A stretch of DNA of 64,000 nucleotides, from contig NZ_CP142394.1 of assembly GCF_035930445.1 (NCBI RefSeq), forward strand, positions 963,501 through 1,027,500, in the 5' to 3' direction. Source of the DNA: Sphingopyxis chilensis. GTDB lineage: Bacteria > Pseudomonadota > Alphaproteobacteria > Sphingomonadales > Sphingomonadaceae. Positions 2,647 to 24,053 of this stretch are shown here, piece after piece. The first letter of the stretch is position 1. Each line of letters begins with the position of its first letter. Position numbers and translations under genes: made by a program. Below the pieces are notes generated by a model that was not told the origin of the DNA, made no database searches, and worked only from the letters and a program-made list of their open reading frames with translations.

Positions 2647-3876
2647 TCAGGGCAGGATACGGCCCTCGTCGCGGCGCGGCATCGGCGCCACGAAACGCAG
2701 CACGAGCGCGGATAGCAGAAGCCAGCCGGCCGAACCGAGGATCGCCGCGGGCAAGCTGCTGAGGTCGGCGACCAGTCCGAGCGTATAGGCACCGAGCGCC
2801 ATCGCGCCAAAGGTCACCGCCTGGTAGATCGACAGGCAGCGGCCGAGGATCTCCTCGGGCGATCGCAATTGCATCGCGACATTCAGCGTCGTCAGCGTCG
2901 ACACCCAGGCGCCGCCGGCGACGAAGGCGGCGATCATCAGGGCGGGAAGGCTGGCCGTCAGCGCGACCGGCAGCATCGCGGCGGCAAAGATCAGCGACGC
3001 GGCGGTCACGACGCGGTCGCTGCCCCAGCGGCGGCGCGCCCGCCCGATCCACAGCGCGGCAAAGATCGATCCGGCGCCGAAGGCGGCAAGGCACAGGCCA
3101 TAGACGATTTCGGTCCCGTGCAGCCGGTCGCGGACGAGCGAAGGGAGCAGCGCCTGAAACCCCGCCGCGCCGACGCCAAAGGCGAAACCACGAATAAGGA
3201 CGCGGCGTACCGGATCCGAATGGGTGCAGAAGCGGATGCCCGCGGCGATCGCGGTCAACATCGGCGTCCGGCGCGGCGGCACGGTTTCGGGATGCCAGCG
3301 CAGCAGCACGACAATCAGCGCGACATAGCTCATCGCATTGAGTCCGAACGCGGCGGCTGTGCCGACGATCGAGATCAATATCCCGCCGAGTGCCGGGCCG
3401 ACGCTGCGGGCCAGGTTGAAGGCGATGGTGTTGAGCGCGATCGCCTGCGGCAAATCCTTCGGCCCCACCTGGAGGCGCACCGACGCCTGCCACGCCGGCC
3501 CGTTGAGCGCAGTGCCGCACCCGACCGCGAGTGTGAAGAAAAGCAGCGTCAGCGGCGTGATGGCATCCATATAGGTCGTCAGCGTCAGCGCTGCCGAGAC
3601 GATCAGCATTCCGGTCTGCGCCGCCAGCATCACGCGCCGCCGGTCGAAATTGTCGGCGATCGCACCGGCAAAAATACCGAGCAGCATGATCGGAATCGTG
3701 GCACCCGCCTGCACCAGCGCGATGAGCAGATGCGATTCGGTGAGTTCGGTCATCAGCCACGCCGCCGCGACCGACTGGATCATCGACCCCATGTTCGACG
3801 CCAGGTTGGCGATCCAGATCGCGCGGAACGCCGGGTAGCGGAAGGGCGCGAACGCAGATGGCGGTTCAGGGCTCAC
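2647..3876 (-). CDS. MFS transporter (MFS_3 / EntS-like)
   Basis: An inner-membrane major facilitator of about 409 residues with around 12 hydrophobic segments. The loop after the second helix pair carries the MFS motif-A-like stretch GAIADNFDRRRVM. The overall pattern, with NLASNMGSMIQSVAAAW near the N-terminus, resembles the MFS_3 family that includes the enterobactin exporter EntS. The frame opens at a TTG (3912); I prefer the GTG at 3876 because it has a weak AGGCGG upstream and leaves a normal N-terminus. It is the last gene of the leftward run bglX-sulfatase-MFS, so it may export or import a product of glycan breakdown, but the substrate cannot be read from the sequence. Confidence 0.82.
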   Translation of the reverse strand: MSPEPPSAFAPFRYPAFRAIWIANLASNMGSMIQSVAAAWLMTELTESHLLIALVQAGATIPIMLLGIFAGAIADNFDRRRVMLAAQTGMLIVSAALTLTTYMDAITPLTLLFFTLAVGCGTALNGPAWQASVRLQVGPKDLPQAIALNTIAFNLARSVGPALGGILISIVGTAAAFGLNAMSYVALIVVLLRWHPETVPPRRTPMLTAIAAGIRFCTHSDPVRRVLIRGFAFGVGAAGFQALLPSLVRDRLHGTEIVYGLCLAAFGAGSIFAALWIGRARRRWGSDRVVTAASLIFAAAMLPVALTASLPALMIAAFVAGGAWVSTLTTLNVAMQLRSPEEILGRCLSIYQAVTFGAMALGAYTLGLVADLSSLPAAILGSAGWLLLSALVLRFVAPMPRRDEGRILP

Positions 3877-3917
3877 ACCAGTCCGCCTAACGCCGCCCGG
3901 CGATCGCCGCAACCCGG

Positions 3918-5477
3918 TCAGCGAATGGCGGGGCCGCTCGTATCTTCATATTCGCGGCGCAGCTCGACCAGCCGCCGCTTCATGCGCGCGATCGGCGCCT
4001 TCATCGCGGGGTCTGCGATCCGGTTATCCATCTCGCGCGGATCGGTCTTGAGGTCGTAAAACTCCCACGCGTCGAGTCCGTCGCCATAGAAGCGGACCAG
4101 CTTGTAGCGCTCGCCGCGCACACCATAATGCGCGCGAACCGAGTGAAATCCGGGGAACTCATAATAATGATAATAGAGGTCCTTGCGCCAGTCGCGCGGC
4201 GTCCGACCCGTGAGCAGCGGCGTCATCGAGCGGCCCTGGATCGTCGCCGGGCCCTTGACCCCGGCATAGTCGAGGAAGGTCGGCGCATAGTCGATATTCT
4301 GGATCGGTGCAGCGATGCGCGTGCCCGGGCGAATATGCCCCGGATACTGGATCAGGAAGGGTGTGCGCATCGATTCTTCATAGATGAATCGCTTGTCGAA
4401 CCAACCGTGCTCGCCGAGGTAAAAGCCCTGATCGGAGGTGTAGACGACGATCGTATTCCGATCGAGGCCGCTTTCCTCCAGATAGTCGAGCACCGCGCCG
4501 ACGCCTTCGTCGACTGCCGCGATCGTCCCCAGATACTGCTGCATGTAACGTTGGTATTTCCACAGCGCGAGGTCGCGGCCCGAGAGCGGCGTAGCGTTGA
4601 GCCGGTCGTTGTCGGCCTGCATAAGCGCGTCCCACTCGGCCTGCTGCGCGTGCGTCATGCGGTCGAATGCGCCCGGCCAGCGATTGTAGCGCAGCTGCGC
4701 GGACCCCTTCGCGACCGTCATCTTGAGGTCGTGGCCCTCATACATATCGCGATAGATGTTCATTTCCTGCGTGCCGGCAGCAATGCGGCCGCGATATTCG
4801 TCGAAATAATTGTCGGGCACGGGAAAGGTCACGCCCTGATATTTTTGCACATGGCGCAGCGCGGGCATGAAATTGCGATGCGGCGCCTTGTGGTGGATCA
4901 GGATCGCGAACGGCTTGGACTTGTCACGGCCGTTCTTCAGCCAGTCGAGGCTGTACCGGGTGATGAGGTCGGTCGCATAGCCCTCGACCACGCTGCGCCC
5001 CTTGGGCGTGATGATATCGGGATTATAATATTCGCCCTGATCGTCGAGCACTTTCCAGTCGTCGAAGCCGATGCCTTCGGGCGAATGGTTGATATGCCAT
5101 TTGCCGAACATCGCGGTCGCATAGCCCGCCTGGCTCAGCGCGCGGGGCCAGACCCAGACATTATTCTCGAAGCGCTGGCCGTTCTGGGTAAAGCCATGCG
5201 CGTGGCTCTGGCGCCCGGTAAGCAGCGTCGCGCGGCTGGGGCCGCAGAGCGAGTTGCCCACGAAGCTTTGCGTGAACATCGCACCATTCTTTGCAATGCG
5301 GTCGATGTTGGGCGTCGGCGCAAGCTTCGACAACGGCGATCCATAGGCCGAAATCGCCTGATAGGCGTGATCGTCCGACATGATGTAGACGATGTTCGGG
5401 CGCGCGGCCGGCTGCGCCCCCGCCGCGGCAGCGAAAGCGAGCGGCAGGGCGAGCGCGACCGGAAGGCGAGACCGCAT
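3918..5477 (-). CDS. Secreted sulfatase (type I, formylglycine-dependent)
   Basis: A 519-residue sulfatase of the alkaline phosphatase superfamily. It starts with a signal peptide (MRSRLPVALALPLAFAAAAG) and then RPNIVYIMSDDHAY, the metal-binding start of the fold. The active-site motif is CGPSRATLLTG, with Cys78 as the residue converted to formylglycine, so the cell must have a sulfatase-maturing enzyme. Later metal and substrate motifs include MFGKWH and YTSDQGFYLGEHGWFDKR. The longer frame would start at 5537 inside the GH3 gene; I chose the ATG at 5477 because it lies just after the GH3 stop (5480) and begins the signal peptide. Co-transcription with the GH3 gene suggests it removes sulfate from a glycan. 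Confidence 0.9.
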   Translation of the reverse strand: MRSRLPVALALPLAFAAAAGAQPAARPNIVYIMSDDHAYQAISAYGSPLSKLAPTPNIDRIAKNGAMFTQSFVGNSLCGPSRATLLTGRQSHAHGFTQNGQRFENNVWVWPRALSQAGYATAMFGKWHINHSPEGIGFDDWKVLDDQGEYYNPDIITPKGRSVVEGYATDLITRYSLDWLKNGRDKSKPFAILIHHKAPHRNFMPALRHVQKYQGVTFPVPDNYFDEYRGRIAAGTQEMNIYRDMYEGHDLKMTVAKGSAQLRYNRWPGAFDRMTHAQQAEWDALMQADNDRLNATPLSGRDLALWKYQRYMQQYLGTIAAVDEGVGAVLDYLEESGLDRNTIVVYTSDQGFYLGEHGWFDKRFIYEESMRTPFLIQYPGHIRPGTRIAAPIQNIDYAPTFLDYAGVKGPATIQGRSMTPLLTGRTPRDWRKDLYYHYYEFPGFHSVRAHYGVRGERYKLVRFYGDGLDAWEFYDLKTDPREMDNRIADPAMKAPIARMKRRLVELRREYEDTSGPAIR

Positions 5478-5479
5478 CG

Positions 5480-7792
5480 TCAATCGGTCAGCTCGAACAT
5501 GGCTTCGGCCCCCTCGGCGGACGACGGCCCGATCCACAGCTTGAATTGGCCGGGCTCGCTGCCCCAGCTCATGTCCGCCCTCGTAAAGGCGAGATCGGCG
5601 TCGGTCAGCGTGAAGCGGACCGTCCGCTTTTCACCCTTCTTGAGGCTGATCTTTTCGAAACCTTTGAGTTGCTTGACCGGCCGCGTCACCGACCCGACGA
5701 GGTCGCGGACATAAAGCTGCACCACTTCCTCGCCGTCGCGCGTGCCGCTGTTGGTGACGGTGACGCTCGCCGTCAACTTATCGCCGGGGCGGATATTCGC
5801 CCGGTCGAGCGTCACCGGCGAATAGGTGAAGCTGGTGTAACTCAGCCCATATCCGAACGGATAGAGCGGGGTGTTCGGCGTATCGAGGTAGCGGGAGACA
5901 TATTTGGCATTCGGGTCCGCCGGATTGATCGGCCGTCCGGTATTCTTCATGTCGTAATGGATCGGCACCTGACCGACGTTGCGCGGGAAGGTGACGGGCA
6001 ATTTGCCCGACGGGTTATAATCCCCGAACAGGACATCGGAGATTGCGTGGCCTCCCATCGTGCCCGGGTACCAGGCCTCGAGGATCGCGTCGACATTGGC
6101 GTCGGCCCATTCGATGCTGTTCGGGCGCCCGCTCATCAAAACGAGGATGATCGGCTTGCCGGTTTTCTTGAGTTCCTGAAGCAAGGCCTGCTGGTTGCCC
6201 GGCAGGCCGAGCGAGGTGCGGCTTGCCGCCTCGCCGGTCATGTTCCAATGCTCGCCCATCGCGGCGATGATCACGTCGGATTTCTGCGCCAGCGCGATCG
6301 CCTCGGCAAATCCATCGCTCTTGCCCGCATCGGCGAACTGGTAGCCCGCACCCTTGGCGTAGGCGACCGTCGTTCCCTTCGGCGCGCGCGCCTGCAGCCC
6401 TTCGAGCAGCGTAACCGGCCGCGTCTTGCGGTCGCCCGCGGCGGACCAGCTGCCGATCATATCCTCCTTGCTGTTGCCGAGCGGGCCGATCAGCGCAATC
6501 GACTTTGCCGAGACGGCGAGGGGCAGGGCATTGTCCTGGTTCTTGAGGAGGACGATCGACTTGCGCGCGACGTCGCGCGCGGCTTCGAGGAAGTCGGGGC
6601 GATAGACGGTCGCCTTTTCCCGCGCTTCGTCCGAATAGCGATACGGGTCCTCGAACAGGCCGAGCCGGTATTTCATCTCGAGGATCGCCTTCACCGCCGC
6701 GTCGACGCGGTTCACATCGACCTTGCCCTCGGCGACCGATTTCGCGAGATGGTCCATGAACACCGCGCCCTGCAGGTCCATATCGACCCCGGCGTTGATC
6801 GCCTGCTCTCCCGCCTGCTTGAGGTCTTTCGAATAGCCATGCGCGACCATTTCGTTGATCGACGTGTAATCGGTTACGACGAAGCCCTTGAAACCCCATT
6901 TATCGCGTAGCACGTCGGTCAGAAGATAATGGCTGCCCGATGCGGGCACGCCGTCATATTCGTTGAACGCCGTCATGAATGTCGCGGCGCCCGCGTCGGC
7001 GGCGGCCTTGAACGGCGGCAGATAGACGTCGCGCAGCGTACGCTCCGAAATATCGACCGTATGATAATCGCGGCCCGCCTGCGCGGCGCCATAGGCGGCA
7101 AAATGCTTCGCCGTCGCCAGCACGGTATCGACGCGCTTCAAATCGTCGCCCTGAAAGCCGCGCACCCGCGCCGCCGCGATCTTGCTACCCAGATAGACAT
7201 CTTCGCCCGCCCCTTCGGACATCCGGCCCCAGCGCGGGTCGCGCGCGACGTCGACCATCGGCGCGAAGGTCCAGTGAATCCCCTCGGCGGAGGCTTCGGT
7301 CGCGGAGATTCGCGCAGCTTTTTCAATGGCGTTCAAGTCCCAGCTCGCCGATTCGCCGAGCGAGATCGGAAAGATGGTGCGGTGGCCGTGGATCACGTCA
7401 TAGCCGAAGAGCAGCGGGATCTTGAGCCGCGTTTCCTCGACCGCCAGGCGTTGCAGGTCGCGCGTATATTTGGCGGTGAAGGCGTTGAAGATCGACCCGA
7501 TCCGCCCCTTTCGGATGTCGTCTTGATAGCCGTCCCGCATCGTCGGGCCGGTCGAATCCCAGTCGCTGGTCAGCAACGACAATTGCCCGATCTTCTCGTC
7601 GAGCGTCATTTTCGCGATCAGATCGGCGATGAACCGGTCCATTTTCGGATCGGCGCGCGTCCACGCTGCCGCATTCGCCGACGTCTCTGCGGCGGGCGCG
7701 AGCTGCGCGAACAGCGGAGCGGGGGCAAGCGGCGCGGTCACCAACAAAGTGGCCAGCGTCAGGCATGTGAGGTTGCGCGTTTTCGGCGGCAT
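5480..7792 (-). CDS. bglX: Periplasmic beta-glucosidase, glycoside hydrolase family 3 (BglX-like)
   Basis: A 770-residue GH3 enzyme that releases terminal beta-linked glucose from oligosaccharides. A signal peptide occupies about residues 1-30. The GH3 (alpha/beta)8 domain spans about 55-370, with KHFAAYG and the nucleophile motif VVTDY (Asp near 308). The alpha/beta sandwich domain follows at about 405-640, with GEHWNMTGEAASR, and a fibronectin-like domain (VTVTNSGTRDGEEVVQLYV) closes the protein. This is the full BglX layout. It is transcribed leftward, divergent from the TonB receptor at 8041, and shares an intergenic LacI-type operator with it. GH3 enzymes next to GH144 genes are known to act on beta-1,2-linked glucose; here that linkage is inferred from context. 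Confidence 0.94.
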   Translation of the reverse strand: MPPKTRNLTCLTLATLLVTAPLAPAPLFAQLAPAAETSANAAAWTRADPKMDRFIADLIAKMTLDEKIGQLSLLTSDWDSTGPTMRDGYQDDIRKGRIGSIFNAFTAKYTRDLQRLAVEETRLKIPLLFGYDVIHGHRTIFPISLGESASWDLNAIEKAARISATEASAEGIHWTFAPMVDVARDPRWGRMSEGAGEDVYLGSKIAAARVRGFQGDDLKRVDTVLATAKHFAAYGAAQAGRDYHTVDISERTLRDVYLPPFKAAADAGAATFMTAFNEYDGVPASGSHYLLTDVLRDKWGFKGFVVTDYTSINEMVAHGYSKDLKQAGEQAINAGVDMDLQGAVFMDHLAKSVAEGKVDVNRVDAAVKAILEMKYRLGLFEDPYRYSDEAREKATVYRPDFLEAARDVARKSIVLLKNQDNALPLAVSAKSIALIGPLGNSKEDMIGSWSAAGDRKTRPVTLLEGLQARAPKGTTVAYAKGAGYQFADAGKSDGFAEAIALAQKSDVIIAAMGEHWNMTGEAASRTSLGLPGNQQALLQELKKTGKPIILVLMSGRPNSIEWADANVDAILEAWYPGTMGGHAISDVLFGDYNPSGKLPVTFPRNVGQVPIHYDMKNTGRPINPADPNAKYVSRYLDTPNTPLYPFGYGLSYTSFTYSPVTLDRANIRPGDKLTASVTVTNSGTRDGEEVVQLYVRDLVGSVTRPVKQLKGFEKISLKKGEKRTVRFTLTDADLAFTRADMSWGSEPGQFKLWIGPSSAEGAEAMFELTD

Positions 7793-7913
7793 GATTCGTC
7801 CTTCCCAGTCGGGTCTGTTTATACATTGTCACGCGGATTGGCCGAATTTCGGCCGGAAACCGGCTGGCCCCCGATCGCATCCACCTGTGTCGCTTCCCCC
7901 TATACAGTGATCG

Positions 7914-7927
7914 TGAAACCGGTTACA
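7914..7927. promoter_or_regulatory. LacI-family operator in the divergent GH3 / TonB receptor promoter region
   Basis: The site matches 13 of 14 bases of the palindrome TGTAACCGGTTACA. It lies almost midway between the GH3 start (7792) and the receptor start (8041), about 115-120 bp from each, so it could control both. The same palindrome occurs upstream of lacI and upstream of the FHS transporter. Central CG palindromes with AACCGGTT are typical of LacI/GalR operators; that the local LacI protein binds it is inferred. Confidence 0.75.
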
Positions 7928-8040
7928 AATCAAAAAAACAACGACGTGGTTTCCCGCGACTCGTTGCTGCACCGGCGGCAAGGCCGGTCGGCAGGCAAGG
8001 CGGGTACGGGAAATGTCGGGGCACAAAAAGGGAGGATGCC

Positions 8041-11000
8041 GTGAAGCTTTCGCATGAATTTCAGACCATGACCGCACGCCGGTCGCGCGCGCGCCGGTTC
8101 GCCGCCGCGCTCGCCTGGAGCAGCGCCGGCGCGGCGCTCGCCGTGGCCGTCGCGACCCCGGCGCAGGCGCAGGTGTCCGGCGCGTCGCTGCGCGGCACCG
8201 TAAAAGCCGAAGGTGGGGTGTCCGAAGTCACCGCGATCAACGTCAATACCGGCCTGACGCGCACTTCGACGGTCAATGCAAACGGGGGCTACAGCTTCGC
8301 CTCATTGCCGGTCGGCACCTATCGCCTCGAATTGACGACACCGCAGGGCAAGCGTCAGACCGATGAGTTCACGCTCAACGTCGCGCAGAATGCGGTGCTC
8401 GATTTCGACTTCTCGCAACCCGACATAGCCGAGGGAGGCGACGATGCGATCATCGTGACGGGCAGCCGTATCCGTTCGATGGAGGGGGGCGAGGTCGGTA
8501 TCAACATCTCGCAGCGGCTGATCGAGCAACTCCCGCAAAACAACCGCAACTTCCTCGCCTTTGCCGACCTCGCACCGGGCGTTCAGTTCATCACCAACGC
8601 CAGTGGTCAGTCGCGCCTTCAGGGCGGTGCGCAAGGCAGCAATTCGGTCAATATCTTCATCGATGGCGTGGGACAGAAGGACTATGTCCTGAAGAACGGC
8701 ATTACCGGACAGGATTCGACGCAGGGCAACCCGTTTCCGCAGCTCGCGATCGGTGAATATCGGGTCATCGGCTCGAACTATAAGGCCGAATATGATCAGG
8801 TGAGTTCGGTCGCGATCACCGCGGTGACTAAATCCGGCACCAACGAATTCCATGGCGAAGGCTTCATCGACTTCACCAACCAGGATCTGCGCGACCGCAC
8901 GCCCTCCGAAAATTATCCCACTTATATTCCCAAGATCAAGACGCGCGACATTCAGTTCGGTGGCGCGCTGGGCGGTCCGATCGTGAAGGACGTCCTCCAT
9001 TTCTTCGTGACCTATGAAGGCAAGCGGCGGACCGAACCGCGCACGATCACTCCGGGCCTCAACCTGTCGCCCGATTTCTTCCCGACCGAATATCAGGGCG
9101 CATTCGGTTCGGCGAGCGAGACGTTCGACGAGAATCTCTATTTCGGCAAACTCAACTTCACCCCGACGTCGAGCGATCTGTTCGAATTTTCGGGTAAATA
9201 TCGTGACGAAACGGGTGTGCAGATCAACAACGGGCTCGCTGCCTTCGACACACGGACGCTCGCGAGGGTCGAGGAATGGCGTGGCCTCGCCCGCTGGGAG
9301 CATACGGCGGACACTTGGGTCAATGATTTCAAGGTCGCTTATGAAGATGTGAGCTGGGGACCGCGCCCGGCCGAATTCGGCAATGTCAGCGTCTTCAATG
9401 CTACGGTGCCGGGCACCGTCCCAGGCACGACACAGCGCGGTGACATTCTGCGTATCGGTGCGGGCAGCAATTTTCAGGACAAGGGGCAGAAGGGCTGGCA
9501 GGTTTCAAACGACTTCACCTTCACTGGTCTTGAAAGCCACACGTTCAAGGTCGGCGTGAAGGCGAAATGGGTCAAGCTCAACACCAACGAGCAGGGCGGG
9601 GTCAACCCAGTTTTCTTCTACAACGCGCTCTATCCGGCGGGCGTCGATTTCAACGATACCATTCCCTATCGCATGCAGTTCAGCGCGCCCGTGACCGACG
9701 GGGATCCGAACATCCGGTCGAACAATTTCCAACTCGGTCTCTATGCGCAGGACGATTGGGAGGTAACCGACCGGCTGACGGTAAACATCGGCCTACGCTG
9801 GGATTATGAACGGACCCCGGCCTTTCTTGACTATGTCCACGACCCAGCGATTGCTGCCTTCGTGAGCGGTCAAGCCTCCTACACCGCGCCCGACGGGACG
9901 GTGACGCCGCCCTATACCAACTTGCTGAACGCCGATTACGACATCAACGATTATATCTCGACCGGCTCCGAGCGAAAGGCGTTCAAGGGCGCGTGGCAGC
10001 CGCGTATCGGCTTCACTTATGAACTCGACGAAGAAGGGCGCTTTGCTGTTTTCGGCGGCTACGGCCGTTCCTATGACCGGACGCAGTTCGATTTCATCCA
10101 GCAGGAACTTCGCCAGGGGCTGTTCGCCAACCGCGTTTTCAACTTCAACAATCCGGGCGATACGACCAATGTCTGCGATCCCAGCCCGACCTGTATCGCA
10201 TGGGATCCCGTCTATCTGACGCCCGAAGGACGCGCGGATCTGATCGCGGGCCTGCCGCCGGGCGCGGGGCGCGAATTGCGCTTCATCAAGAACGACCTCA
10301 AGGTGCCCTATTCGGACCAGTTCAGCCTCGGTGTGCGCGGGCGCTTCAACCTGCTCGATGCCGAAGTCGGCTATAGCTATGTGAAGAGCAAGGACGGTTT
10401 CGTCTATCTGCTCGGCAACCGGCGGCCCGACGGCAGCTTCTTCCCGCCGACGGGCAATCCGGACTCACCGTTCGGTTCGCCGCCGTCACCTTTCGGTTCG
10501 ATCATCCTCGGCGACAACGGGCTCGAAACAAAGGCGCATACCGCCTATCTCAAGCTGACCAAGCGTTATACCCAGGCCTCGCCGTGGAGCTTCGACGCAA
10601 CATACACCTACACCGATGCCAAGGAAAACCGGCAGTTTGGTGAGGTCTTCAGCCTCGATTTCCCGAATATCGACGATTATGGCTTCATCACGGCGACGGG
10701 TGTGCGCAAACATCGTCTGGTGATGGCGGGAACGGTGGATATCCCGATGGGTTTCACCGTGTCGGGCAAGTTCCAGATCGCATCGCCCAAATATCTCGGC
10801 GCGATCCTGAACACGCCGGGCACGGGAGGCACGCCGCCATCGCGCGAAGCGATCTCGACCGAGACGGAGGGCAATGGCGACCGCTGGGGCTATCGGCAGA
10901 TGGACCTTTCGATCACCAAATATGTCCCGATCGCCTTTGTCAGCGACGAAGCGCGGCTGCGTTTCCGCCTCGATATCATCAACCTGTTCAACGACCGCAA

Positions 11001-11103: not shown

Positions 11104-11113
11104 CCGGCTGATC

Positions 11114-11163
11114 AGGCGTCCGGCCCGCACCCCCCTCCCGCGGGCCGGGCGCCTCAAATTTTT
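11114..11163 (+). terminator. Strong hairpin with T-run between TonB receptor and GH144-like gene (attenuator or terminator)
   Basis: Arms 11114-11128 and 11140-11154 pair over 15 positions with one G-U wobble, around an 11-base C-rich loop. A run of five T follows at 11159-11163. It has the form of an intrinsic terminator placed only 70 bp after the receptor stop and just ahead of the next ribosome-binding site, so it may cut transcription partly and keep the receptor more abundant than the enzyme. Confidence 0.6.
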
Positions 11164-11173
11164 GGAGTATTTG

Positions 11174-12670: not shown

Positions 12671-12671
12671 A

Positions 12672-12697
12672 TGTTCCCCGGCTTTCGCCGGAGAACA
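12672..12697. repeat. Short palindrome between convergent genes
   Basis: TGTTC and CCGGC arms pair with GCCGG and GAACA around a TTTC-type loop. The core CCCGGCTTTCGCCGG is also found in the larger palindrome at 29318-29395. It separates the convergent GH144-like and EEP genes and could act as a two-way terminator, though it lacks a clear T-run. Confidence 0.5.
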
Positions 12698-12699
12698 GA

Positions 12700-14909: not shown

Positions 14910-15661
14910 TTCTTGTCCTTGTCGGCATAAGTCGGGGAGGGAAGTTTCTGTTCGAGCAACCAGGCATAGAGCGCTGGGTCGTCATAGGTGGGATCCCAGG
15001 CATTGTGGCCGAGGTCGGGATAGATGGTGAGGCGGACCTTGCGGCCGCCGCAGGCGCGGATTGCGCGCGCCATGGCGAAGCTGCCTTCGGGCATGACGAC
15101 ATCGTCGCGGTCACCATGGAACGCCCAGACCGGCAGGTCCATCAGGCGGCACGCCTCTCCGGGATTTCCGCGCCCAGCGACCGCGGCGACCGCGGCGAAC
15201 CGCTTGGGCTCGGCGATCGCCCAGCGCCAGCTCGCATGGCCGCCGCGGCTGAGGCCGGTGAGATAGATCCGCGCCGGATCGACGCGATAGGTCTTGGTTA
15301 CATGGTCGACGAGCGCGTCGAGCTTTTCGATATCCCAGTCCTGATCGGTGCCGAGCAGCGGCGAGACGGTGAGGAAAGGGAAGGTGGCATCGCGGTCGGC
15401 GATCTTTGGCGGACCGTGCACCTTCACCTTAGCGACATCGTCGCCGCGCTCGCCCGAGCCGTGGAGAAAGATCAGCAGGGGATAGTGGTTCGCCTTGTCG
15501 GTCAGATAGCCCTGGGGCACGAACAGCTGGTACGGATAATTGCCGGATGCGACCGGCTGCCGGGGTGTCTGGCCTTCGACGACCGGAGGGGCTTTCGTCC
15601 AGGCGGCAGCGGGGGAAGTGGCGAGCGCAAGGCCCAGCAGCGCCGCGGTCCAATATCTCAT
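14906..15661 (-). CDS. Secreted alpha/beta-hydrolase esterase (COG4099-like predicted peptidase)
   Basis: A 251-residue exported serine hydrolase. Signal peptide MRYWTAALLGLALATSPAAA is followed by the oxyanion segment LLIFLHGSGERGDD, nucleophile elbow GLSRGGHASW, acid in AFHGDRDDVV and histidine in LGHNAWD. Such proteins in glycan loci are often carbohydrate esterases. The ATG at 15661 is chosen because AAGGAACC lies just upstream and it opens the signal peptide. A second ATG at 15688 overlaps the permease stop (ATGA) and would add nine residues. It might remove acyl groups such as succinate or acetate from the glucan; that is inference. Confidence 0.85.
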   Translation of the reverse strand: MRYWTAALLGLALATSPAAAWTKAPPVVEGQTPRQPVASGNYPYQLFVPQGYLTDKANHYPLLIFLHGSGERGDDVAKVKVHGPPKIADRDATFPFLTVSPLLGTDQDWDIEKLDALVDHVTKTYRVDPARIYLTGLSRGGHASWRWAIAEPKRFAAVAAVAGRGNPGEACRLMDLPVWAFHGDRDDVVMPEGSFAMARAIRACGGRKVRLTIYPDLGHNAWDPTYDDPALYAWLLEQKLPSPTYADKDKK

Positions 15662-15684
15662 ATTCGGTTCCTTGGTTGAACGGG

Positions 15685-16500
15685 TCATCCCTTGACACTC
15701 CCGGTCAGCAGCCCGCTCAGATAATAGCGTTGGAGCGCGAGGAAGAGGATGAGGACGGGGAGGGTGGTGACGACCGCGCCGGCCATCATGATCTCGTAAT
15801 CCTGCACATTCTGGCGGCTGTTCGCGGCGAGCGCGACGGGCAAGGTGTAGAGATCCTGGTCGGCGAGAATGATCAGCGGCCACATGAAATCGTTCCAGCT
15901 CGACAGGAACACATAGAGCGCCAGTGTGACGATGATCGGGGTCAGGATCGGCAGGACGATGCGGCGGAGGATCTGTCCTTCGCTCGCGCCGTCGATGCGC
16001 GCCGCCTCGAGCATCTCGTCGGGGATCGACAGGCAATATTGGCGCACGAGGAAGATGCCGAAAATGCCCGCGAGCCATGGCACCAGCGCGCCGGCATAGC
16101 TGTTGACGAGGCCCATGGCCTTGAGCTCGAGGAACAGCGGCAGCATCCCGATCTGTCCCGGCACGACGAGCGCCGCGACGAGCAAACGGAAGATCGCGTC
16201 GCGTCCCGCGAAGCGCAGCTTGGCAAAGGCGTAGCCCGCCGGGATGGTGAAAAGCAGCGCCAGCCCTGTCGCGAGCGTCGAGATGAGGATGCTGTTGAGC
16301 AGGAAGCGCCCGACGCCGAAGGTGCCGAACAGCAGGTGGTAGTTTTCGAGTGTCGGGCTCGCGGGCCACAGCGGCGGCGGGAATTGCGCCGCCTCGCCGC
16401 GCGCCATGAAGCTGACCGACACCATCCAGATCAGCGGCGCGATTGTGACCAGCGCGACCAGCGCGGCGAGAAGCGTGACGGACCAGCGACGCAGGCTCAT
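15685..16500 (-). CDS. ABC sugar transporter permease (MalG/UgpE type)
   Basis: A 271-residue inner-membrane permease with about six helices. The EAA loop that contacts the ATPase is visible as EAARIDGASEGQILRRIVLPIL, and a MalG-type ending (ALQRYYLSGLLTGSVKG) is present. The ATG at 16500 overlaps the stop of the other permease by ATGA; the longer frame to 16605 lies inside that gene. It forms the transmembrane dimer with the 16497-17423 product and works with the lipoprotein at 17420 and the ATPase at 19869. Confidence 0.95.
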   Translation of the reverse strand: MSLRRWSVTLLAALVALVTIAPLIWMVSVSFMARGEAAQFPPPLWPASPTLENYHLLFGTFGVGRFLLNSILISTLATGLALLFTIPAGYAFAKLRFAGRDAIFRLLVAALVVPGQIGMLPLFLELKAMGLVNSYAGALVPWLAGIFGIFLVRQYCLSIPDEMLEAARIDGASEGQILRRIVLPILTPIIVTLALYVFLSSWNDFMWPLIILADQDLYTLPVALAANSRQNVQDYEIMMAGAVVTTLPVLILFLALQRYYLSGLLTGSVKG

Positions 16501-17423
16501 ATCGCGCCGCTCCGTTTCGCAAGCCGCAGCTGCACCAGCGTCACGGCAAGAATGCAGAGAAAGAGCAGGAAGGCGACCGCCGCGCCCGAGCCGAGGTTCC
16601 ACCATTTGAACCCTTCCTCATACATGAAATAGAGGATCGTGACGGTCGACTGGGCGGGGCCGCCCTGCGTCATCACATAGGGTTCGGCAAACAGCTGGAA
16701 CATGCCCGCGACGGTCAGCACCGATACGAGCAGCACGGTCGGCGCGATCGCGGGCAGGGTGACGTGGCGCAGCCGCGTCAACCACCCCGCGCCATCGATC
16801 CGCGCCGCCTCGTCGAGTTCGCGCGGCACGGTCTGCAGCGCGGCGAGGAAGATGATCATATTATAGCCAAAGGTCTTCCACGCGACGAAGAGCAGGATCG
16901 CGGGCAGCGAGGCGGTGGGGCTGCCAAGCCAGTCGACCGGCGGCACGCCGAAGAAGGAGAGCAGATAGTTGAGCAGGCCGTAACGCGTGTGGAGCAGGTA
17001 GCGCCACACGACGGCGGTCGCGACGAGCGTCGTCACATAGGGCGCGAACAGCGCGACGCGCCACAGCGGCCGCCATTTCAGCCAGCGCGAATTGACAATC
17101 ATCGCGGCGAACAGCGACAGCGCGACGATGAAAGGCGTGCCGACCGCAACGAACAGCAATGTGTTCGTCATCGCCTTCCAGAATAGCGGGTTATCGAGCA
17201 ATCTTTCGTAATTCTGGAGCCCGACGAAGCGCAGGTTGCCGATGTCGGCGAGCGCGTAGATGTCGAAATCGGTGAAGCTCAGGAACAGCGACGCGATCGC
17301 CGGCAGGACGAAGAAAAGCAGGATCGCCGCGAGCGCCGGAATCGACATCGCCCAGCCCGCGCGTGCCTCGCTCGCCCGGCCGACCGCGCTCGCGCGTTCA
17401 CTGGCTCGCGACTGCGCGCTCAC
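16497..17423 (-). CDS. ABC sugar transporter permease (MalF/UgpA type)
   Basis: A 308-residue inner-membrane permease with the EAA-loop sequence EAARIDGAGWLTRLRHVTLP and about six helices starting at SIPALAAILLFFVLP. The start is GTG at 17423, which overlaps the stop of the binding-protein gene as GTGA. The long frame to 17852 is only a shadow of the binding-protein gene. An internal ATG about 25 codons in is possible, but the coupled GTG gives the usual cytoplasmic N-terminal tail. Confidence 0.93.
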   Translation of the reverse strand: MSAQSRASERASAVGRASEARAGWAMSIPALAAILLFFVLPAIASLFLSFTDFDIYALADIGNLRFVGLQNYERLLDNPLFWKAMTNTLLFVAVGTPFIVALSLFAAMIVNSRWLKWRPLWRVALFAPYVTTLVATAVVWRYLLHTRYGLLNYLLSFFGVPPVDWLGSPTASLPAILLFVAWKTFGYNMIIFLAALQTVPRELDEAARIDGAGWLTRLRHVTLPAIAPTVLLVSVLTVAGMFQLFAEPYVMTQGGPAQSTVTILYFMYEEGFKWWNLGSGAAVAFLLFLCILAVTLVQLRLAKRSGAI

Positions 17424-18688
17424 AAAGTCCGCCCCCTGTCCAGCATCCAGCGCCGCTTTTCGAGCAGCCGATCGGCGCGCACGTCGATCTCCTTCGCCGC
17501 CTCGTCGACGCTGAACTGCCCGCGCACCATGCGTTCGGCGACGATCTGCATCTCGGTGACGATGCGCTCCCATTCGGGGACCTTCGGCAGCGCGGTCGCG
17601 CGGTCGAGCTGCGTGCGGAAGGGTTCGACCGCCGGGTCGCGTATCAGCCCTGCCGCAGTCCACACCGAGCGCCGCGCGGGCAGATCTCCCGTCGCCTCGT
17701 GGAGCGCAAGCTGTGCGCCGGGGGCCATCAGGCGCGATACCAGATCCCACGCCGCCTCGCCATGCGCGCTGCTTGCGAAAACGACGAGGCTCGACCCGCC
17801 GGGCGCCGCAGAGCCGACGCCGTCGGGGCCGGGGTTGGCGGCGGTCTCCCACGCGTCCTGCAATTCGGGGGCGAGACGGCTCTTCATATCGCCGATCGTC
17901 CAGGGGCCGGAGAGGAAGAGGCTGAAATAGCCGCGCGCGAATTCGGCCCAGACATTCGAAATCTGCGCCATCGATACCCGCGGCGCCAGCCCTTCGTCGA
18001 ACAGCGATTTATAGAAGGCGAGCGCCGCCTTGAACTCGGGGTCCGAAAAGGCACCGCGTCCACCGTCGTCGCGCAGCAGCCGCGCGCCCGCCGACAGCGC
18101 GAGCGTCGTCAACTGCTCATATTCGTTGAGCGGATAGAGCAGCGCGAAATTGCCGTCGCCGGCCTGTTTTTTCACCTTGTGGAGCGCGGCTTTCCACTCG
18201 GCCCAGCCGGACGGCGGCGCGGCATATCCCGCGCGCGCGAACAGATCCTTGCGATAAAATTGCAGCCGCGTGTCGACATACCATGGAATACCCCACGTCT
18301 TGCCCGCGATCCGGTTGGTATCGACCACCGCGCCGAACTGGTCGCCGAGGAGGCGCATCGCGTGCGCGGGAACCGGCGCGAGCGCGCCGATCGCGGCGAG
18401 CTCGGCGATCCAGCTGTTGCCGACCTGCCCGACGGCGGGCAGCGAATCCCCGGCAAAGCCCGTCAGCAATTTTTCGTGCGCGGCGGTCCAGGGCAGCGGC
18501 TGGATCGCGATCGGCGGCGCGGTCGCGGGCCAGTCGATACCCCGGACCAGCGCGGGCAGGCTCGCCGCTTCGTTCCCCATCGCCCAGACGGTCAGCGTAT
18601 CGCGCCCGCGCGCGCCGCAGCCGCTTAGCAGGGGGGCGAGAGGCAGCGCGGCGAGCGCGCCGGTCAAATGGCGGCGCGTCAGCTGCAT
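17420..18688 (-). CDS. ABC sugar transporter substrate-binding lipoprotein
   Basis: A 422-residue family-1 extracellular solute-binding protein that captures sugar in the periplasm. The N-terminus has a twin arginine (TRRHLTG) followed by a lipobox LLSGC with lipidated Cys24. Family features include LTVWAMGNE at the first strand, GIPWYVDTRLQFYRKDLF, and NVWAEFARGYFSLFLSGPW in the second lobe. The ATG at 18688 is preferred over an in-frame TTG at 18694. It is the first transporter gene after lacI. A sugar importer of the CUT1 class for oligosaccharides fits; the binding-pocket ligand is not predictable here. Confidence 0.92.
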   Translation of the reverse strand: MQLTRRHLTGALAALPLAPLLSGCGARGRDTLTVWAMGNEAASLPALVRGIDWPATAPPIAIQPLPWTAAHEKLLTGFAGDSLPAVGQVGNSWIAELAAIGALAPVPAHAMRLLGDQFGAVVDTNRIAGKTWGIPWYVDTRLQFYRKDLFARAGYAAPPSGWAEWKAALHKVKKQAGDGNFALLYPLNEYEQLTTLALSAGARLLRDDGGRGAFSDPEFKAALAFYKSLFDEGLAPRVSMAQISNVWAEFARGYFSLFLSGPWTIGDMKSRLAPELQDAWETAANPGPDGVGSAAPGGSSLVVFASSAHGEAAWDLVSRLMAPGAQLALHEATGDLPARRSVWTAAGLIRDPAVEPFRTQLDRATALPKVPEWERIVTEMQIVAERMVRGQFSVDEAAKEIDVRADRLLEKRRWMLDRGRTL

Positions 18689-18710
18689 CGGCAAGGGCGC
18701 GCCGGCGTGC

Positions 18711-19751
18711 TCATGGCGGCGAGGCTCCCGCCCCGGCGGTCGCTTTCTCGGTTCCGGGCGCGTTCGCGGTGGTGCCGCGCGCGATGAGACTGGGGGTGAG
18801 GATTGTCGCGCTCGCCGCGCCGAGCGCGTCGCCGCGCAGCAGGCGGAGCAGCATCATCATGCCCGTCGAGCCCAGCCGGTCGATATTGACCTGCATCGTC
18901 GTCAGGCCGGGGCTCAGGTGCCGCGCGAGCGGAATATCGTCGAAACCCGCGACCATGACGTCGCCGGGCACCGACACGCCCGCACGCGCCAGTTCGGCGA
19001 TCAGCCCGACCGCCATCTGGTCGTTCGCGGCAAAGACCGCGTCGGCCGGGAGCTGCCCCTCGACGAATAGCCGCGCGGCCTTCTCGCCGCTTTCTTCCGA
19101 GAAGTCGCCGGGCAGGATCACCGGACTACGTTCCCCGGCGATTTTCGCCATCGCATCGGCGAAGCCGCGCTGGCGGTCGCGCGCGTCGCGGTTGTGCTTG
19201 GGTCCGGCGATATGGACGACCTGCCGCGCTCCGCCTGTCAGCAAGGCTTCGGTCATTGCATAGGCGCCGCGATAATTGTCGACCGCCACAAATGGCAGGT
19301 CGAGCGATCCCGCGTCATAATTGAGCAGCACCGTAGGCAGTGCCGGGTCGAGATAGTCCGACAGCAATTCGGGCTTCAGGTCGGGCGGCATGACGAGCAG
19401 CCCATCGACGCGGCCGCGCATCGCGGCGATCGCCGCCGCCGTCTCGTGCGTGCTGCCGTGCATGTTACCGAGCAGGAGGTGCATCCCCGATTCATGCGCG
19501 ACCAGGTCGATGCCGCGAATGATTTCGGAGAAGAATTCGCCGAACAGGTCGGGCAGGATGACCCCGACGGTGTCGGTCTTGCGCCGGGTCAGGCTGCGCG
19601 CGCCGCTATGGGGCACGAAATTCAACTTCTTGACCGCCGCCATCACTGCGGCGCGTGTCGGCGCGGTGACATTGCCGAGCCCGTTGATGGCTCGCGATGC
19701 CGTCGCCACCGAAACCCCCGCTTCGCGGGCGACATCCCTCAATGTTGCCAT
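18711..19751 (-). CDS. LacI-family transcriptional repressor of the glucan locus
   Basis: A 346-residue LacI/GalR regulator. The N-terminal helix-turn-helix (MATLRDVAREAGVSVATASR) and hinge AVKKLNFVPHSGARSL are classic, and the periplasmic-binding-like effector domain runs from about residue 60 (TVGVILPD) with the motif AVFAANDQMAVGLI and VAGFDDIPLA. The ATG at 19751 follows a GAGGGAAAGGGGG stretch; the longer frame has no ribosome-binding site. Its own promoter region carries the palindrome at 19839-19852, so autoregulation is likely. It heads the leftward operon lacI, binding protein, two permeases, esterase, GH1, EEP. The inducer is probably a mono- or disaccharide released from the glucan. 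Confidence 0.94.
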   Translation of the reverse strand: MATLRDVAREAGVSVATASRAINGLGNVTAPTRAAVMAAVKKLNFVPHSGARSLTRRKTDTVGVILPDLFGEFFSEIIRGIDLVAHESGMHLLLGNMHGSTHETAAAIAAMRGRVDGLLVMPPDLKPELLSDYLDPALPTVLLNYDAGSLDLPFVAVDNYRGAYAMTEALLTGGARQVVHIAGPKHNRDARDRQRGFADAMAKIAGERSPVILPGDFSEESGEKAARLFVEGQLPADAVFAANDQMAVGLIAELARAGVSVPGDVMVAGFDDIPLARHLSPGLTTMQVNIDRLGSTGMMMLLRLLRGDALGAASATILTPSLIARGTTANAPGTEKATAGAGASPP

Positions 19752-19838
19752 GCCGCTGGCCCCCTTTCCCTCAATTGGCAGCGGGCCGCTTGTGCGACTC
19801 GGTTCTTCCAGGTTCGCCGGGTGCGGAAACATTCACAG

Positions 19839-19852
19839 CGTAACCGGTTACA
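19839..19852. promoter_or_regulatory. LacI-family operator upstream of lacI
   Basis: The site matches 13 of 14 bases of TGTAACCGGTTACA and lies about 88-100 bp before the lacI start, in the 117-bp gap after the ATPase gene. It suggests that lacI and the downstream transporter genes have their own, autoregulated promoter here. Confidence 0.75.
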
Positions 19853-19868
19853 CGGGCGAAAGGCAAGG

Positions 19869-20951
19869 TCATTTCCCGGCCTTTCCCAAGGCTTGGCCGG
19901 CGGCGTCAAACAGGTGCAGCCGGTCGGCCGGAAGCACGGCGGCGACCGCGTCTCCCTCATCGAGGCGGCCGTCGTCGCGTAGCTGGCACGCAATGGCTTC
20001 ATCGTCCGCATGCGCGCCCAGATGCAGCGTCGCGAGCCCGCCGAGCCGTTCGATAAAACGGATGGTGAAAGGCAGCGCGTCCGGAGCATCGCCGATCGCG
20101 ATATCCTCGGGCCGGATCCCGATCGACAGCGGCGTCCCGGTCGCAGGCGCTGCTTCGAGCGAGGGCAGGGCGATGCTCCGCCCGTCGGCCAGCGTCGCCC
20201 GGCCGCCCTCCGCCATGGTTGCAGCCAGGATATTCATCCGCGGCGTGCCGAGAAACTGCGCGACGAAGATATTCGCCGGCCGCGCGTAAAGTTCGCGCGG
20301 TGTCCCTGCCTGTTCGATCCGCCCGTCGCGCAGCACGACGATCCGGTCGGCAAGCGTCATCGCTTCGACCTGGTCGTGCGTCACATAGAGCGTCGTCGTG
20401 CCGAGCTGGCGGTGCAGCTCGGCAAATTCGTAACGCATCCGCACGCGCAGATCGGCGTCGAGGTTCGACAGCGGCTCGTCGAACAGGAAAATTTGCGGCT
20501 GGCGCACGATCGCGCGGCCGATTGCCACGCGCTGCCGCTGCCCGCCCGACAGTGCCGCCGGCTTGCGGTCGAGCAGGCCCTCGATATTCAGTATCGCCGC
20601 CGCGCGGCGCACCGCGGCATCGATCGCGGATTTGTCCGTCTTCGCGATTTTCAGCCCGAACGCCATATTCTCATAGACGCTGAGGTGCGGGTAGAGCGCA
20701 TAGGATTGGAACACCATCGCGATGCCGCGCTCCGAGGGTGCAAGGTCGGTGACGTCGCGGTCGCCGATGACGATGCGGCCGTCCGTCAGATCCTCCAGTC
20801 CCGCCACGACACGCAGCAGCGTCGATTTGCCGCATCCCGACGGGCCGACGATCACGGTGAATTCGCCGTCGGCGACGTCGATCGACACGCCTTTCAGGAC
20901 CTCGGTCGCCCCGAAGCTCTTGCGCGCGCCCTCGATCGACAGTCGAGCCAT
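19869..20951 (-). CDS. ABC sugar transporter ATPase (MsmX/UgpC/MalK type)
   Basis: A 360-residue ATP-binding subunit for a CUT1 sugar importer. Walker A GPSGCGKST is at 36-44, the signature LSGGQRQR near 134, Walker B FLFDEPLSNLD just after it, and the H-loop in YVTHDQVEAMTLADR. The C-terminal 120 residues form the OB-like regulatory domain of MalK proteins. It is encoded between the FHS transporter (22 bp upstream) and the lacI operon, and must supply energy to the permeases at 15685-17423 since no other ATPase is in the locus. Confidence 0.96.
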   Translation of the reverse strand: MARLSIEGARKSFGATEVLKGVSIDVADGEFTVIVGPSGCGKSTLLRVVAGLEDLTDGRIVIGDRDVTDLAPSERGIAMVFQSYALYPHLSVYENMAFGLKIAKTDKSAIDAAVRRAAAILNIEGLLDRKPAALSGGQRQRVAIGRAIVRQPQIFLFDEPLSNLDADLRVRMRYEFAELHRQLGTTTLYVTHDQVEAMTLADRIVVLRDGRIEQAGTPRELYARPANIFVAQFLGTPRMNILAATMAEGGRATLADGRSIALPSLEAAPATGTPLSIGIRPEDIAIGDAPDALPFTIRFIERLGGLATLHLGAHADDEAIACQLRDDGRLDEGDAVAAVLPADRLHLFDAAGQALGKAGK

Positions 20952-20973
20952 GTTTCGCGGCGTTCCAGGGACC

Positions 20974-22338
20974 TCAGTGAACCGTCACGCCTGCGCTCGC
21001 CTGCCGCGCCGGCGCGCGTCCCGCGGCGATCGCGAACAGGCATAGCGCGACGTAGCAGGCGGCCGGCAGGGCCAGTGCAGCGGCGTAGCCGACCGCATCG
21101 GACAATTGCCCGACAAGATAGGGGATCGCCGCACCGCCGACGATCGCGGTGCAGAGCAGCCCCGATGTGGCTTCGGCGCGCGCGGTCGAACGTTCGAGCG
21201 TCAGCGTGAAGATCACAGGAAACATGATCGAATTGAACAGTCCGATCGACAGCGCGACGAAGCCTGCGCTTACGCCGCCGACGGACACGATATAAAGGCA
21301 GAGCAGCGCCGCGACGGCTGTGAAGATGGAGAGCAGCTTCGATGCGGAGAAGCGCGCGAGCAGCACCGATCCGATCGCGCGGCCGACCATCGCGCCGCCC
21401 CAGTAAAGCGCGACCGCCTTTCCGGCCTCTTGCAACGAAACGCCGGGGACGCCGTCGCTGCCCATGATCCAGCCGAAGGTACCGAAGGCTGCGTCCGACT
21501 GTCCCCAGATTGCATCGCTGTTGAGGAACAGCGCCATCTGCGTCCCGATCGCCACTTCGGCGCCGACGTACAGGAAGATCGCGAAACCGCCGAGCAGCGC
21601 CCAGCGTGACGAAAAGGCTTCGCGGATCAGTTCCCCCATCCCGGCACGCTGGCCGATCGGCGCGGGTGGCACAGCTTCGTTGACGATCCGCCGGCTGAAC
21701 CAGAAGAAGAAAAGCAACGCGATGATCAGCCCGCAGATCCAGAAATAGGCGGCGTCGATCCCGCCAAGCGCCTGCGCTCGCACCGCCTCGGTCACCACCA
21801 TGCCCTCCTTGACCTCGACGCCTTCGAGGAAGAGGTGCGCGCCGATCAGCGGGCCGAGGAAGGTGCCGAAACTGTTGAAGGTCTGGCTGAATGTCAGGCG
21901 GAAATGGCTGCGTTTCGGGTCGCCGAGCGCTGCGGCGAGCGGATTGGCCGCGACCTGCAGGATGGTGATCCCGCTTGCGAGGATGAAGAGGCCCGCGAGC
22001 ACGAGCGGATAGACGGCGAGATTCGCCGCGGCGAGCATGACGAGGCAGCCGACGACCATCGTCGACAACGCGGTCAGGATCGACGGTACCGAGTGAAAGC
22101 GGGCGATCAGCGCCGCTGCCGGGAAGGACATCAGGCCGTAGGCGATGAAAAAGGCCGATGCCGAAAGCTGCGCCTCGGCATCGCTCAGTGTGAAGATACC
22201 CTTCACCGCGGCGACGAGCGGGTCGATCAGCGACGTGATGAAGCCCCAGGCGAAAAACAGCACGGTTACCGCGGCGAAGGCCGCCATGGCATTCGACCGG
22301 CCGCCACTTTGGACGCTCGCCTCGCTGGGCAGGTTCAT
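20974..22338 (-). CDS. FHS-family sugar/H+ symporter (GluP/FucP-like)
   Basis: A 454-residue MFS protein with 12 hydrophobic segments. The N-terminal stretch AVTVLFFAWGFITSLID and the motif LQVAANPLAAALGDP are hallmarks of the fucose/galactose/glucose:H+ symporter family. It would import the glucose (or related monosaccharide) released in the periplasm by the GH3 enzyme. The ATG at 22338 has AGAGGA nearby upstream; the upstream extension of the frame overlaps the divergent guaB leader and is not coding. A LacI-type operator lies 63-76 bp upstream of the start. Confidence 0.93.
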   Translation of the reverse strand: MNLPSEASVQSGGRSNAMAAFAAVTVLFFAWGFITSLIDPLVAAVKGIFTLSDAEAQLSASAFFIAYGLMSFPAAALIARFHSVPSILTALSTMVVGCLVMLAAANLAVYPLVLAGLFILASGITILQVAANPLAAALGDPKRSHFRLTFSQTFNSFGTFLGPLIGAHLFLEGVEVKEGMVVTEAVRAQALGGIDAAYFWICGLIIALLFFFWFSRRIVNEAVPPAPIGQRAGMGELIREAFSSRWALLGGFAIFLYVGAEVAIGTQMALFLNSDAIWGQSDAAFGTFGWIMGSDGVPGVSLQEAGKAVALYWGGAMVGRAIGSVLLARFSASKLLSIFTAVAALLCLYIVSVGGVSAGFVALSIGLFNSIMFPVIFTLTLERSTARAEATSGLLCTAIVGGAAIPYLVGQLSDAVGYAAALALPAACYVALCLFAIAAGRAPARQASAGVTVH

Positions 22339-22400
22339 TCGCAATATCCTCTTCGCCGGAACTATGTTATGCGGCGGGTCTAACGGGGCGTCGGAGGCAA

Positions 22401-22414
22401 TGCAACCGGTTACA
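22401..22414. promoter_or_regulatory. LacI-family operator upstream of the FHS transporter
   Basis: The site matches 13 of 14 bases of TGTAACCGGTTACA. It sits in the 257-bp region between the leftward transporter (start 22338) and the rightward guaB (22596), much nearer the transporter, so it most likely controls that gene and the ATPase behind it. Confidence 0.72.
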
Positions 22415-22427
22415 TCGGTGCCGATGA

Positions 22428-24053
<1,626 letters not shown>

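Follow-up and report, generated by a model that had tools for sequence, protein, structure and literature searches.

A LacI-controlled locus of Sphingopyxis chilensis predicted to catabolise foreign beta-1,2-glucan

Which glucan, and made by whom, would a sphingomonad break down with a TonB-dependent receptor, a GH144 enzyme, GH3 and GH1 beta-glucosidases, a full ATP-binding cassette (ABC) importer and an FHS symporter next to one LacI regulator? This question is raised by positions 2647-22414 of a 64,000-nt stretch of the Sphingopyxis chilensis genome (assembly GCF_035930445.1, contig NZ_CP142394.1, positions 963,501-1,027,500; the whole stretch is called the window here), in which genes were typed by Pfam and NCBIfam on open reading frames. 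The locus has fourteen genes in 2647-22338 and is followed by guaB (22518-24053, plus strand). We propose, with a probability of roughly 0.8, that it serves the LacI-controlled catabolism of a beta-1,2-glucan of foreign origin, most likely a substituted one such as an osmoregulated periplasmic glucan (OPG) or a sulfated marine counterpart. Many Gram-negative bacteria produce beta-1,2-glucans, which in some cases act as virulence or symbiosis factors, and little is known of the recycling of these polymers in soil and water. An earlier note on this DNA had named the families given above, all of which are matched by Pfam or NCBIfam; its title and reasoning missed the sulfatase, the EEP phosphatase and the hydrolase described below.

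Glucanase, uptake system and LacI control

The gene at 11174-12670 (plus strand) encodes a predicted GH144 endo-beta-1,2-glucanase with a PF10091 domain (8.8e-89), and its closest solved match is XCC2207 (8xul, 9.3e-155). XCC2207 is XcSGL, a GH144 beta-1,2-glucanase in which E239, F286 and Y367 are marker residues of the SGL clan; in the 8xul chain the acid is replaced by Q, this being the E239Q mutant (PMC12102758). The window protein has E, F and Y at the matching positions of the 8xul alignment (an offset of 14 was counted by hand), and these three columns, like Cys19 and Glu235, are invariant in 14 GH144 sequences that include the window protein. The invariant Cys19 would suit a lipoprotein, which the protein probably is. 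With PF10091 as its domain and a GH144 beta-1,2-glucanase as its nearest assayed relative, the case for GH144 membership is strong, and the earlier assignment as GH144-like is borne out. Groups 1-3 of the SGL clan were described as specific for beta-1,2-glucan (PMC12102758). The nearest relatives that bear names belong to Sphingopyxis.

The uptake genes point to the same linkage. The closest solved relative of the solute-binding protein (SBP; 17420-18688, minus strand) is 3uor of Xanthomonas (2.9e-114), which is labelled a sugar-binding protein and nothing more specific, was presumably published under the name MalE, and may really serve beta-1,2-glucooligosaccharides. The next relative is Lin1841 (5ysb, 3.1e-49), which binds beta-1,2-glucooligosaccharides (PMC12369401). 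Genes for relatives of the SBP adjoin GH144 in Lysobacteraceae loci (L048, L054). The importer is completed, all on the minus strand, by permeases of the MalG/UgpE type (15685-16500) and the MalF/UgpA type (16497-17402), both with PF00528 (BPD_transp_1), and by a MalK/UgpC-type ATPase (19869-20951; NF008653, 470.2 bits against a cut-off of 432). The GH3 beta-glucosidase (5480-7792, minus strand) is of the BglX type (NF011678, 868.6 bits, cut-off 666), appears to be secreted (here and below, signal peptides were called by visual inspection alone) and has 5xxl and Lin1840 (4zo6) among its relatives in the structure search. The GH1 beta-glucosidase (13563-14909, minus strand; PF00232, TIGR03356 over its cut-off) has no signal peptide and would be cytosolic. 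By a hand count, a Trp lies 27 residues before its nucleophile, the spacing of SGR_2426 of Streptomyces griseus, a GH1 beta-1,2-glucosidase with Trp291, Gln229 and a hydrophobic residue 171 at subsite +1; such a Trp is, however, common in GH1. The locus thus holds what marks a beta-1,2-glucan utilisation cluster, namely an SGL-clan glucanase, a Lin1841-like SBP and GH1 and GH3 beta-glucosidases. Further transport would be provided by an Oar-type TonB-dependent receptor with a carboxypeptidase-regulatory domain (8041-11103, plus strand, likely starting at about 8065; PF25183, PF00593, PF13620) and by an FHS-type (GluP/FucP-like) MFS sugar transporter (20974-22338, minus strand) whose 181.6 bits for TIGR01272 lie below the cut-off of 202.55.

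The link between importer and GH1 enzyme is seen in related loci. We counted genes in the 62 of 80 GH144 loci that have at least 9.5 kb on both sides, comprising 29 of the 34 loci from close sphingomonads (all but L011, L020, L026, L029 and L034) and 33 others. EEP, sulfatase, hydrolase, GH3 and GH1 genes were scored as present from 45% identity over at least 60% of the query, the rest from 35%. The TonB receptor occurs in all 29 close loci, GH3 in 27 and LacI in 26. The SBP, both permeases and GH1 occur together in 17/29 and are all absent in the other 12, so that GH1 is found in 17/17 loci with the SBP and in 0/12 without it. SBP and GH1 also agree in state across 30/30 ingroup rows of the GH144 tree; each changes three times there, which is not enough for a test. 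Such pairing would be expected if GH1 splits the cargo of the importer and another enzyme does so elsewhere, and we infer that GH1 cleaves the oligosaccharides that the ABC importer delivers. The same counts speak against the earlier view that ABC, TonB and FHS transport are an unusual mix for a sphingomonad, since SBP plus permeases are present in 17 of the 29 close loci, the ABC ATPase in 16 and an FHS-like gene in 14. The TonB receptor, GH144, ABC importer and LacI are also found together in Xanthomonadaceae and other loci, and a scheme of TonB transport with GH144 and an ABC importer has been proposed in print for Ignavibacterium (PMC8861115).

The LacI-family regulator (18711-19754, minus strand; PF00356, PF13377) appears to govern the locus through operators that are confined to it. 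The operator pattern TGTAACCGGTTACA occurs with one mismatch at 7914-7927, in the divergent promoter region of GH3 and the TonB receptor, at 19839-19852, upstream of lacI, and at 22401-22414, upstream of the FHS gene. These three, the matching operators pointed out before, are the only sites with at most one mismatch in the genome of 3,952,559 bases. With up to three mismatches the window has 6 sites, compared with a mean of 0.37 and a maximum of 2 in 100 dinucleotide shuffles. Two further genome sites appear at two mismatches, one inside GH3 and one at C1:1230968, and a control pattern read backwards gives 3 per strand. A site with at most one mismatch is present in the GH3/TonB receptor promoter region of 29/35 loci (L007-L041). 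We read two divergent units, GH3-sulfatase-MFS_3 (minus strand) and TonB receptor-GH144 (plus strand), as starting from the promoter region near 7.9 kb, and FHS-ABC ATPase and lacI-SBP-permease-permease-hydrolase-GH1-EEP as two more, both on the minus strand.

The two-mismatch site inside GH3 (6865-6878) was rejected as an operator, as it encodes the V-T-D-Y codons of the enzyme. Similar near-operators recur inside GH3 of relatives because the conserved V-T-D-Y motif is encoded there, and this could mislead regulon scans. The three frames adjoining C1:1230968 are a CoA-transferase, an FAA hydrolase and one without a family match.

As for the substrate, a beta-1,2-glucan is well supported by GH144 membership and by the relatives of the SBP and GH3 enzyme. 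No OpgG/D protein (PF04349) was found in the 99.93% complete genome, with a search whose control was positive in E. coli, and no PF10091 protein besides the GH144 enzyme, as a cyclic glucan synthase would be, was found either. Therefore, the known routes of beta-1,2-glucan synthesis seem to be absent, and the glucan would most likely be made by another organism; the earlier idea of a beta-1,2-glucan from other bacteria is supported.

Side-group enzymes and the proposed route

Three products with signal peptides are not required for cutting the glucan. The first is a Cys-type S1 sulfatase (3918-5477, minus strand; PF00884/PF16347) with the formylglycine motif CxPxR, here CGPSR, and with 9s03, 7p24 and the GlcNAc-6-sulfatase 5g2v as its nearest solved relatives. 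Its columns C78, D361, R363 and H450 are invariant in 18 proteins, the window protein included, whereas in the pattern scan 1 of them had no match to CxPSR and 5 had none to HxGxR. D361, R363 and H450 are candidates for the His/Asp/Arg triad of S1_11 that contacts O3 and O4, and the nearest structures suggest that the enzyme belongs to this subfamily. Sulfatases of S1_11 read O3 and O4 of gluco-configured sugars, and the residues for the N-acetyl group are missing in about half of the subfamily (PMC10154612), which would allow a glucose-6-sulfate end. A gene of the FGE type (PF03781, 276 bits) adjoins a second S1 sulfatase in the same genome (G000:C1:479218-482156, L113).

The second is an EEP-superfamily phosphatase or phosphodiesterase (12700-13566, minus strand; PF03372) whose nearest structure is 4c1r, a 'mannosyl-6-phosphatase', at 1.5e-50. 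Columns E68, H159, D194, N196, D274 and H275, which we assume to be the catalytic residues, are invariant in 28 proteins; pattern scans missed QE in 2 and IDxIF in 3 of these. The third, an alpha/beta-hydrolase (14906-15661, minus strand; PF02230/PF00326; relatives 4q82 and 3doh), is a probable esterase; its catalytic-type columns, too, do not vary among the relatives compared, and among 29 hydrolases GxSxG was missed in 1 and GHxAWD in 4. Succinyl, acetyl, phosphoglycerol and phosphoethanolamine groups are described as substituents of these glucans, and a 2025 review states that their positions on linear OPG were not identified (PMC11842490). The three extra enzymes suggest a polymer with chemical side groups, possibly including sulfate, and could reveal the substituents and where they sit.

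Their distribution ties these genes to GH144. In a survey of 149 genomes of the family (cut-offs E<=1e-100 for the GH144 A1 profile, 1e-30 for EEP, 1e-80 for the sulfatase and 1e-40 for the hydrolase), GH144 occurs in 23 genomes; of 36 genomes of the genus, this one included, 15 have it. All holders of EEP (11/11), sulfatase (7/7) and hydrolase (10/10) are GH144-positive, with hypergeometric values, ignoring shared descent, of 9.8e-11, 8.7e-7 and 1e-9 by genome and 3.7e-8, 2e-5 and 2.7e-6 by genus. Distances to GH144 are 5.7-5.8 kb for all 7 sulfatase matches, no more than 6 kb for the 10 hydrolase matches and no more than 2.2 kb for 8/11 EEP matches. Within the 29 close loci the hydrolase is present in 25, EEP in 23 and the sulfatase in 17.

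Put together, the genes of the locus outline a complete pathway governed by one LacI. The Oar-type receptor would carry the glucan into the periplasm, where the GH144 lipoprotein would cut it to beta-1,2-glucooligosaccharides and the sulfatase, EEP phosphatase and hydrolase would remove sulfate, phosphate and acyl groups, respectively. GH3 could then free glucose for uptake by the FHS symporter, while the ABC importer would bring sophorose-type oligosaccharides to the cytosol to be split by GH1. An inducer, perhaps sophorose, would release LacI from the three operators. Taken with the Polysaccharide Utilization Loci (PULs) of marine Bacteroidetes, the locus raises the tentative idea that a beta-1,2-glucan with O-sulfate, likely at O6, and with phosphate and acyl groups exists in nature, and that sphingomonads own a module dedicated to stripping it.

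Competing explanations and neighbouring genes

Several observations weigh against our proposal. The clan residues E, F and Y are shared by 'Group 4', where no substrate came to light (PMC12102758), so that they back but do not prove activity. The GH1 equivalent of Gln229 in SGR_2426 (subsite +1) could not be placed, and outside the close set 7/15 loci with the SBP have no GH1 relative (8/15 have one). The FGE-type gene stays under every NCBIfam cut-off, and the string 'sulf' is absent from the text of the 2025 review (PMC11842490). As to the side-group genes, the co-occurrence values take shared descent as if it were independent evidence, 3/11 EEP matches (G109, G113, G185) are 35-41% identical and more than 100 kb from GH144, and the changes of EEP and hydrolase on the tree are not coupled beyond chance; tests by independent pairs rested on 2 and 3 supported pairs, numbers too small to reach significance. 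The sulfatase is patchy in the close loci, with 8 state changes along the GH144 tree, and none of the three has a relative of at least 45% identity in the 33 other full-flank GH144 loci.

The last two points would suit a plain beta-1,2-glucan, with the sulfatase, EEP protein and hydrolase as neighbours that serve another glycan or scavenge sulfate or phosphate. The clusters of Streptomyces and Ignavibacterium, as they are described, have no sulfatase (PMC12369401, PMC8861115). More distant relatives of the sulfatase also lie away from GH144: besides this genome, 2/385 genomes of the class hold one outside the family (45 and 49% identity; 43 and 46% by tblastn), and no GH144 match was present in the 19-kb stretches around them, which indicates that this family of sulfatases has no general tie to beta-1,2-glucan. 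Against this stand the GH144 genes in every holder among the 149 genomes, the position of EEP and hydrolase inside the LacI-ABC-GH1 run and of the sulfatase directly behind GH3, a gene order maintained in several genera, and the independent pairing of GH144 with a sulfatase in marine Bacteroidetes (PMC6499787, PMC8072126). We regard a plain glucan as the most serious rival, and as unlikely.

A short sophoroside from plants or algae, i.e. an acylated or sulfated beta-1,2-diglucoside of a flavonoid or saponin, is an improbable substrate. The side-group enzymes would suit such glycosides, and relatives of GH1 and GH3 act on sophorose (PMC12369401), but longer chains are favoured by the TonB receptor and by an endo-glucanase for which subsites -3 to +2 are probably required, and no family for aglycone breakdown was matched among the locus genes. 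Very little speaks for another beta-glucan, such as laminarin or cellodextrin, with GH144 acting on that linkage. GH3 BglX and GH1 are broad families and the label of 3uor is a general one; still, the locus genes have no match to GH16, GH5 or GH17, among assayed GH144 enzymes the nearest one cuts beta-1,2-glucan, and clan Groups 1-3 were beta-1,2-specific (PMC12102758). Remodelling of the cell's own periplasmic glucan is hardly credible, for although several products look secreted, the genome lacks matches to OpgG/D and to another PF10091 protein, and the importer, cytosolic GH1 and LacI indicate catabolism.

Under the reading that we prefer, a foreign and probably substituted beta-1,2-glucan, related loci may also bear on the shape of the chain. 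A GH97-type gene (one member was scanned) is present in 11 of them (L021, L023, L027, L031-L033, L035-L037, L039, L040), with a LacI-type operator at its start in 8/11, in L037 within the first bases of the frame. The scanned protein scores best with a model for retaining alpha-galactosidases, far below the cut-off. The GH97 gene of this genome (C1:440587) is half a megabase off and was not counted in the locus. Other related loci encode a large (alpha/alpha)6 enzyme (c11); it was at first thought to be a GH94 phosphorylase, and Pfam and fold settled no family. No match to c11 was found in this genome, in a search that had no positive control and so shows nothing by itself. Glucans cyclised by a single alpha-1,6 bond are made by Xanthomonas, Ralstonia and Rhodobacter (PMC11228985), and the GH97 or c11 enzyme could open that bond.

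The MFS_3 transporter gene at the locus edge (2647-3912, minus strand; EntS-like, PF05977 1.7e-125) is an uncertain member of the system, being present in 12/29 close loci, each of them an ABC-type locus. At 70-2643 of the window a further TonB-type barrel and a frame for an HxlR-type regulator precede the locus and were not counted as members. A gene of the tryptophan-halogenase type (one member scanned) lies just upstream of GH144 in relatives of Lysobacter (L052:8112-9698, L053, L064).

Comparison with known systems

As judged from its genes, this is a real beta-1,2-glucan utilisation locus of a known kind under a local LacI. The idea of a sulfated polymer has been in print since 2019; the phosphate and acyl part and the route in a sphingomonad would be new. 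Among the literature matches listed, we met neither GH144 together with EEP and hydrolase genes nor any such sphingomonad locus.

Listeria innocua lin1839-1841 shares relatives of the SBP and GH3 enzyme with the window and differs by the GH94 phosphorylase Lin1839; GH144, a TonB receptor and side-group enzymes are not part of its description (PMC12369401). The S1_11 sulfatases of Bacteroides resemble the window sulfatase, with 5g2v among the nearest structures and FDKR and the histidine of HYG conserved, but they were described on N-acetylglucosamine glycans and L-galactose (PMC10154612), whereas the gene here stands beside a beta-1,2-glucanase. The cluster SGR_2422-2427 of Streptomyces griseus likewise has an ABC importer and Lin1841-like SBP, a GH1 beta-1,2-glucosidase, a beta-1,2-glucanase and a gene annotated as acetyl-esterase; its glucanase belongs to GH193, a TonB receptor is lacking as the organism is Gram-positive, and no sulfatase or EEP protein is named in the description (PMC12369401).

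In Ignavibacterium album, too, TonB-dependent uptake, GH144 and an ABC importer whose SBP resembles Lin1841 were proposed to act on beta-1,2-glucan, but GH144 is encoded twice there, and GH94 and GH35 enzymes are present as well (PMC8861115). The introduction of that paper names GH3 and its discussion says that there is no beta-glucosidase homolog, and the words 'sulfatase' and 'esterase' are absent from its main text (PMC8861115). The Xanthomonas and Lysobacter loci around relatives of XcSGL (e.g. L052-L054, L062, L071, L080, L084, L085) have LacI, an Oar-type receptor, GH144, the SBP, permeases and sometimes GH1 or GH3. In Xanthomonas campestris pv. campestris (Xcc) the Oar-type receptor gene is XCC2208, numbered next to XCC2207. 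These loci differ in that they often encode an (alpha/alpha)6 enzyme of 914-1345 amino acids and hold no side-group relatives of 45% identity or more.

The sulfatase finds a counterpart in marine Bacteroidetes. There, PULs with GH144 and an added sulfatase led the authors to infer a sulfate-decorated marine version of a terrestrial polysaccharide (PMC6499787), and Maribacter dokdonensis has a cluster of GH144 and sulfatase genes together with GH3 (PMC8072126). Uptake in those PULs is by SusC/SusD; the sphingomonad locus, from Alphaproteobacteria, has an Oar-type receptor, an ABC importer with GH1, and LacI instead, adds the EEP protein and the hydrolase, and shares the presence of a sulfatase. 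It does not qualify as a PUL of the Bacteroidota SusC/SusD type, as no SusD domain was matched among its genes. Two Spirosoma loci (L043, L044) have a distant sulfatase, 24-28% identical to that of the window, by SusC/SusD-GH144 genes, which matches the published Bacteroidetes pairing. The S. chilensis locus would thus lend support from a second phylum to the pairing of GH144 and sulfatase, although its transport genes follow another plan and two side-group enzymes are added. It also allows the question of a sulfated marine glucan to be tested with a further set of enzymes that is independent of the first.

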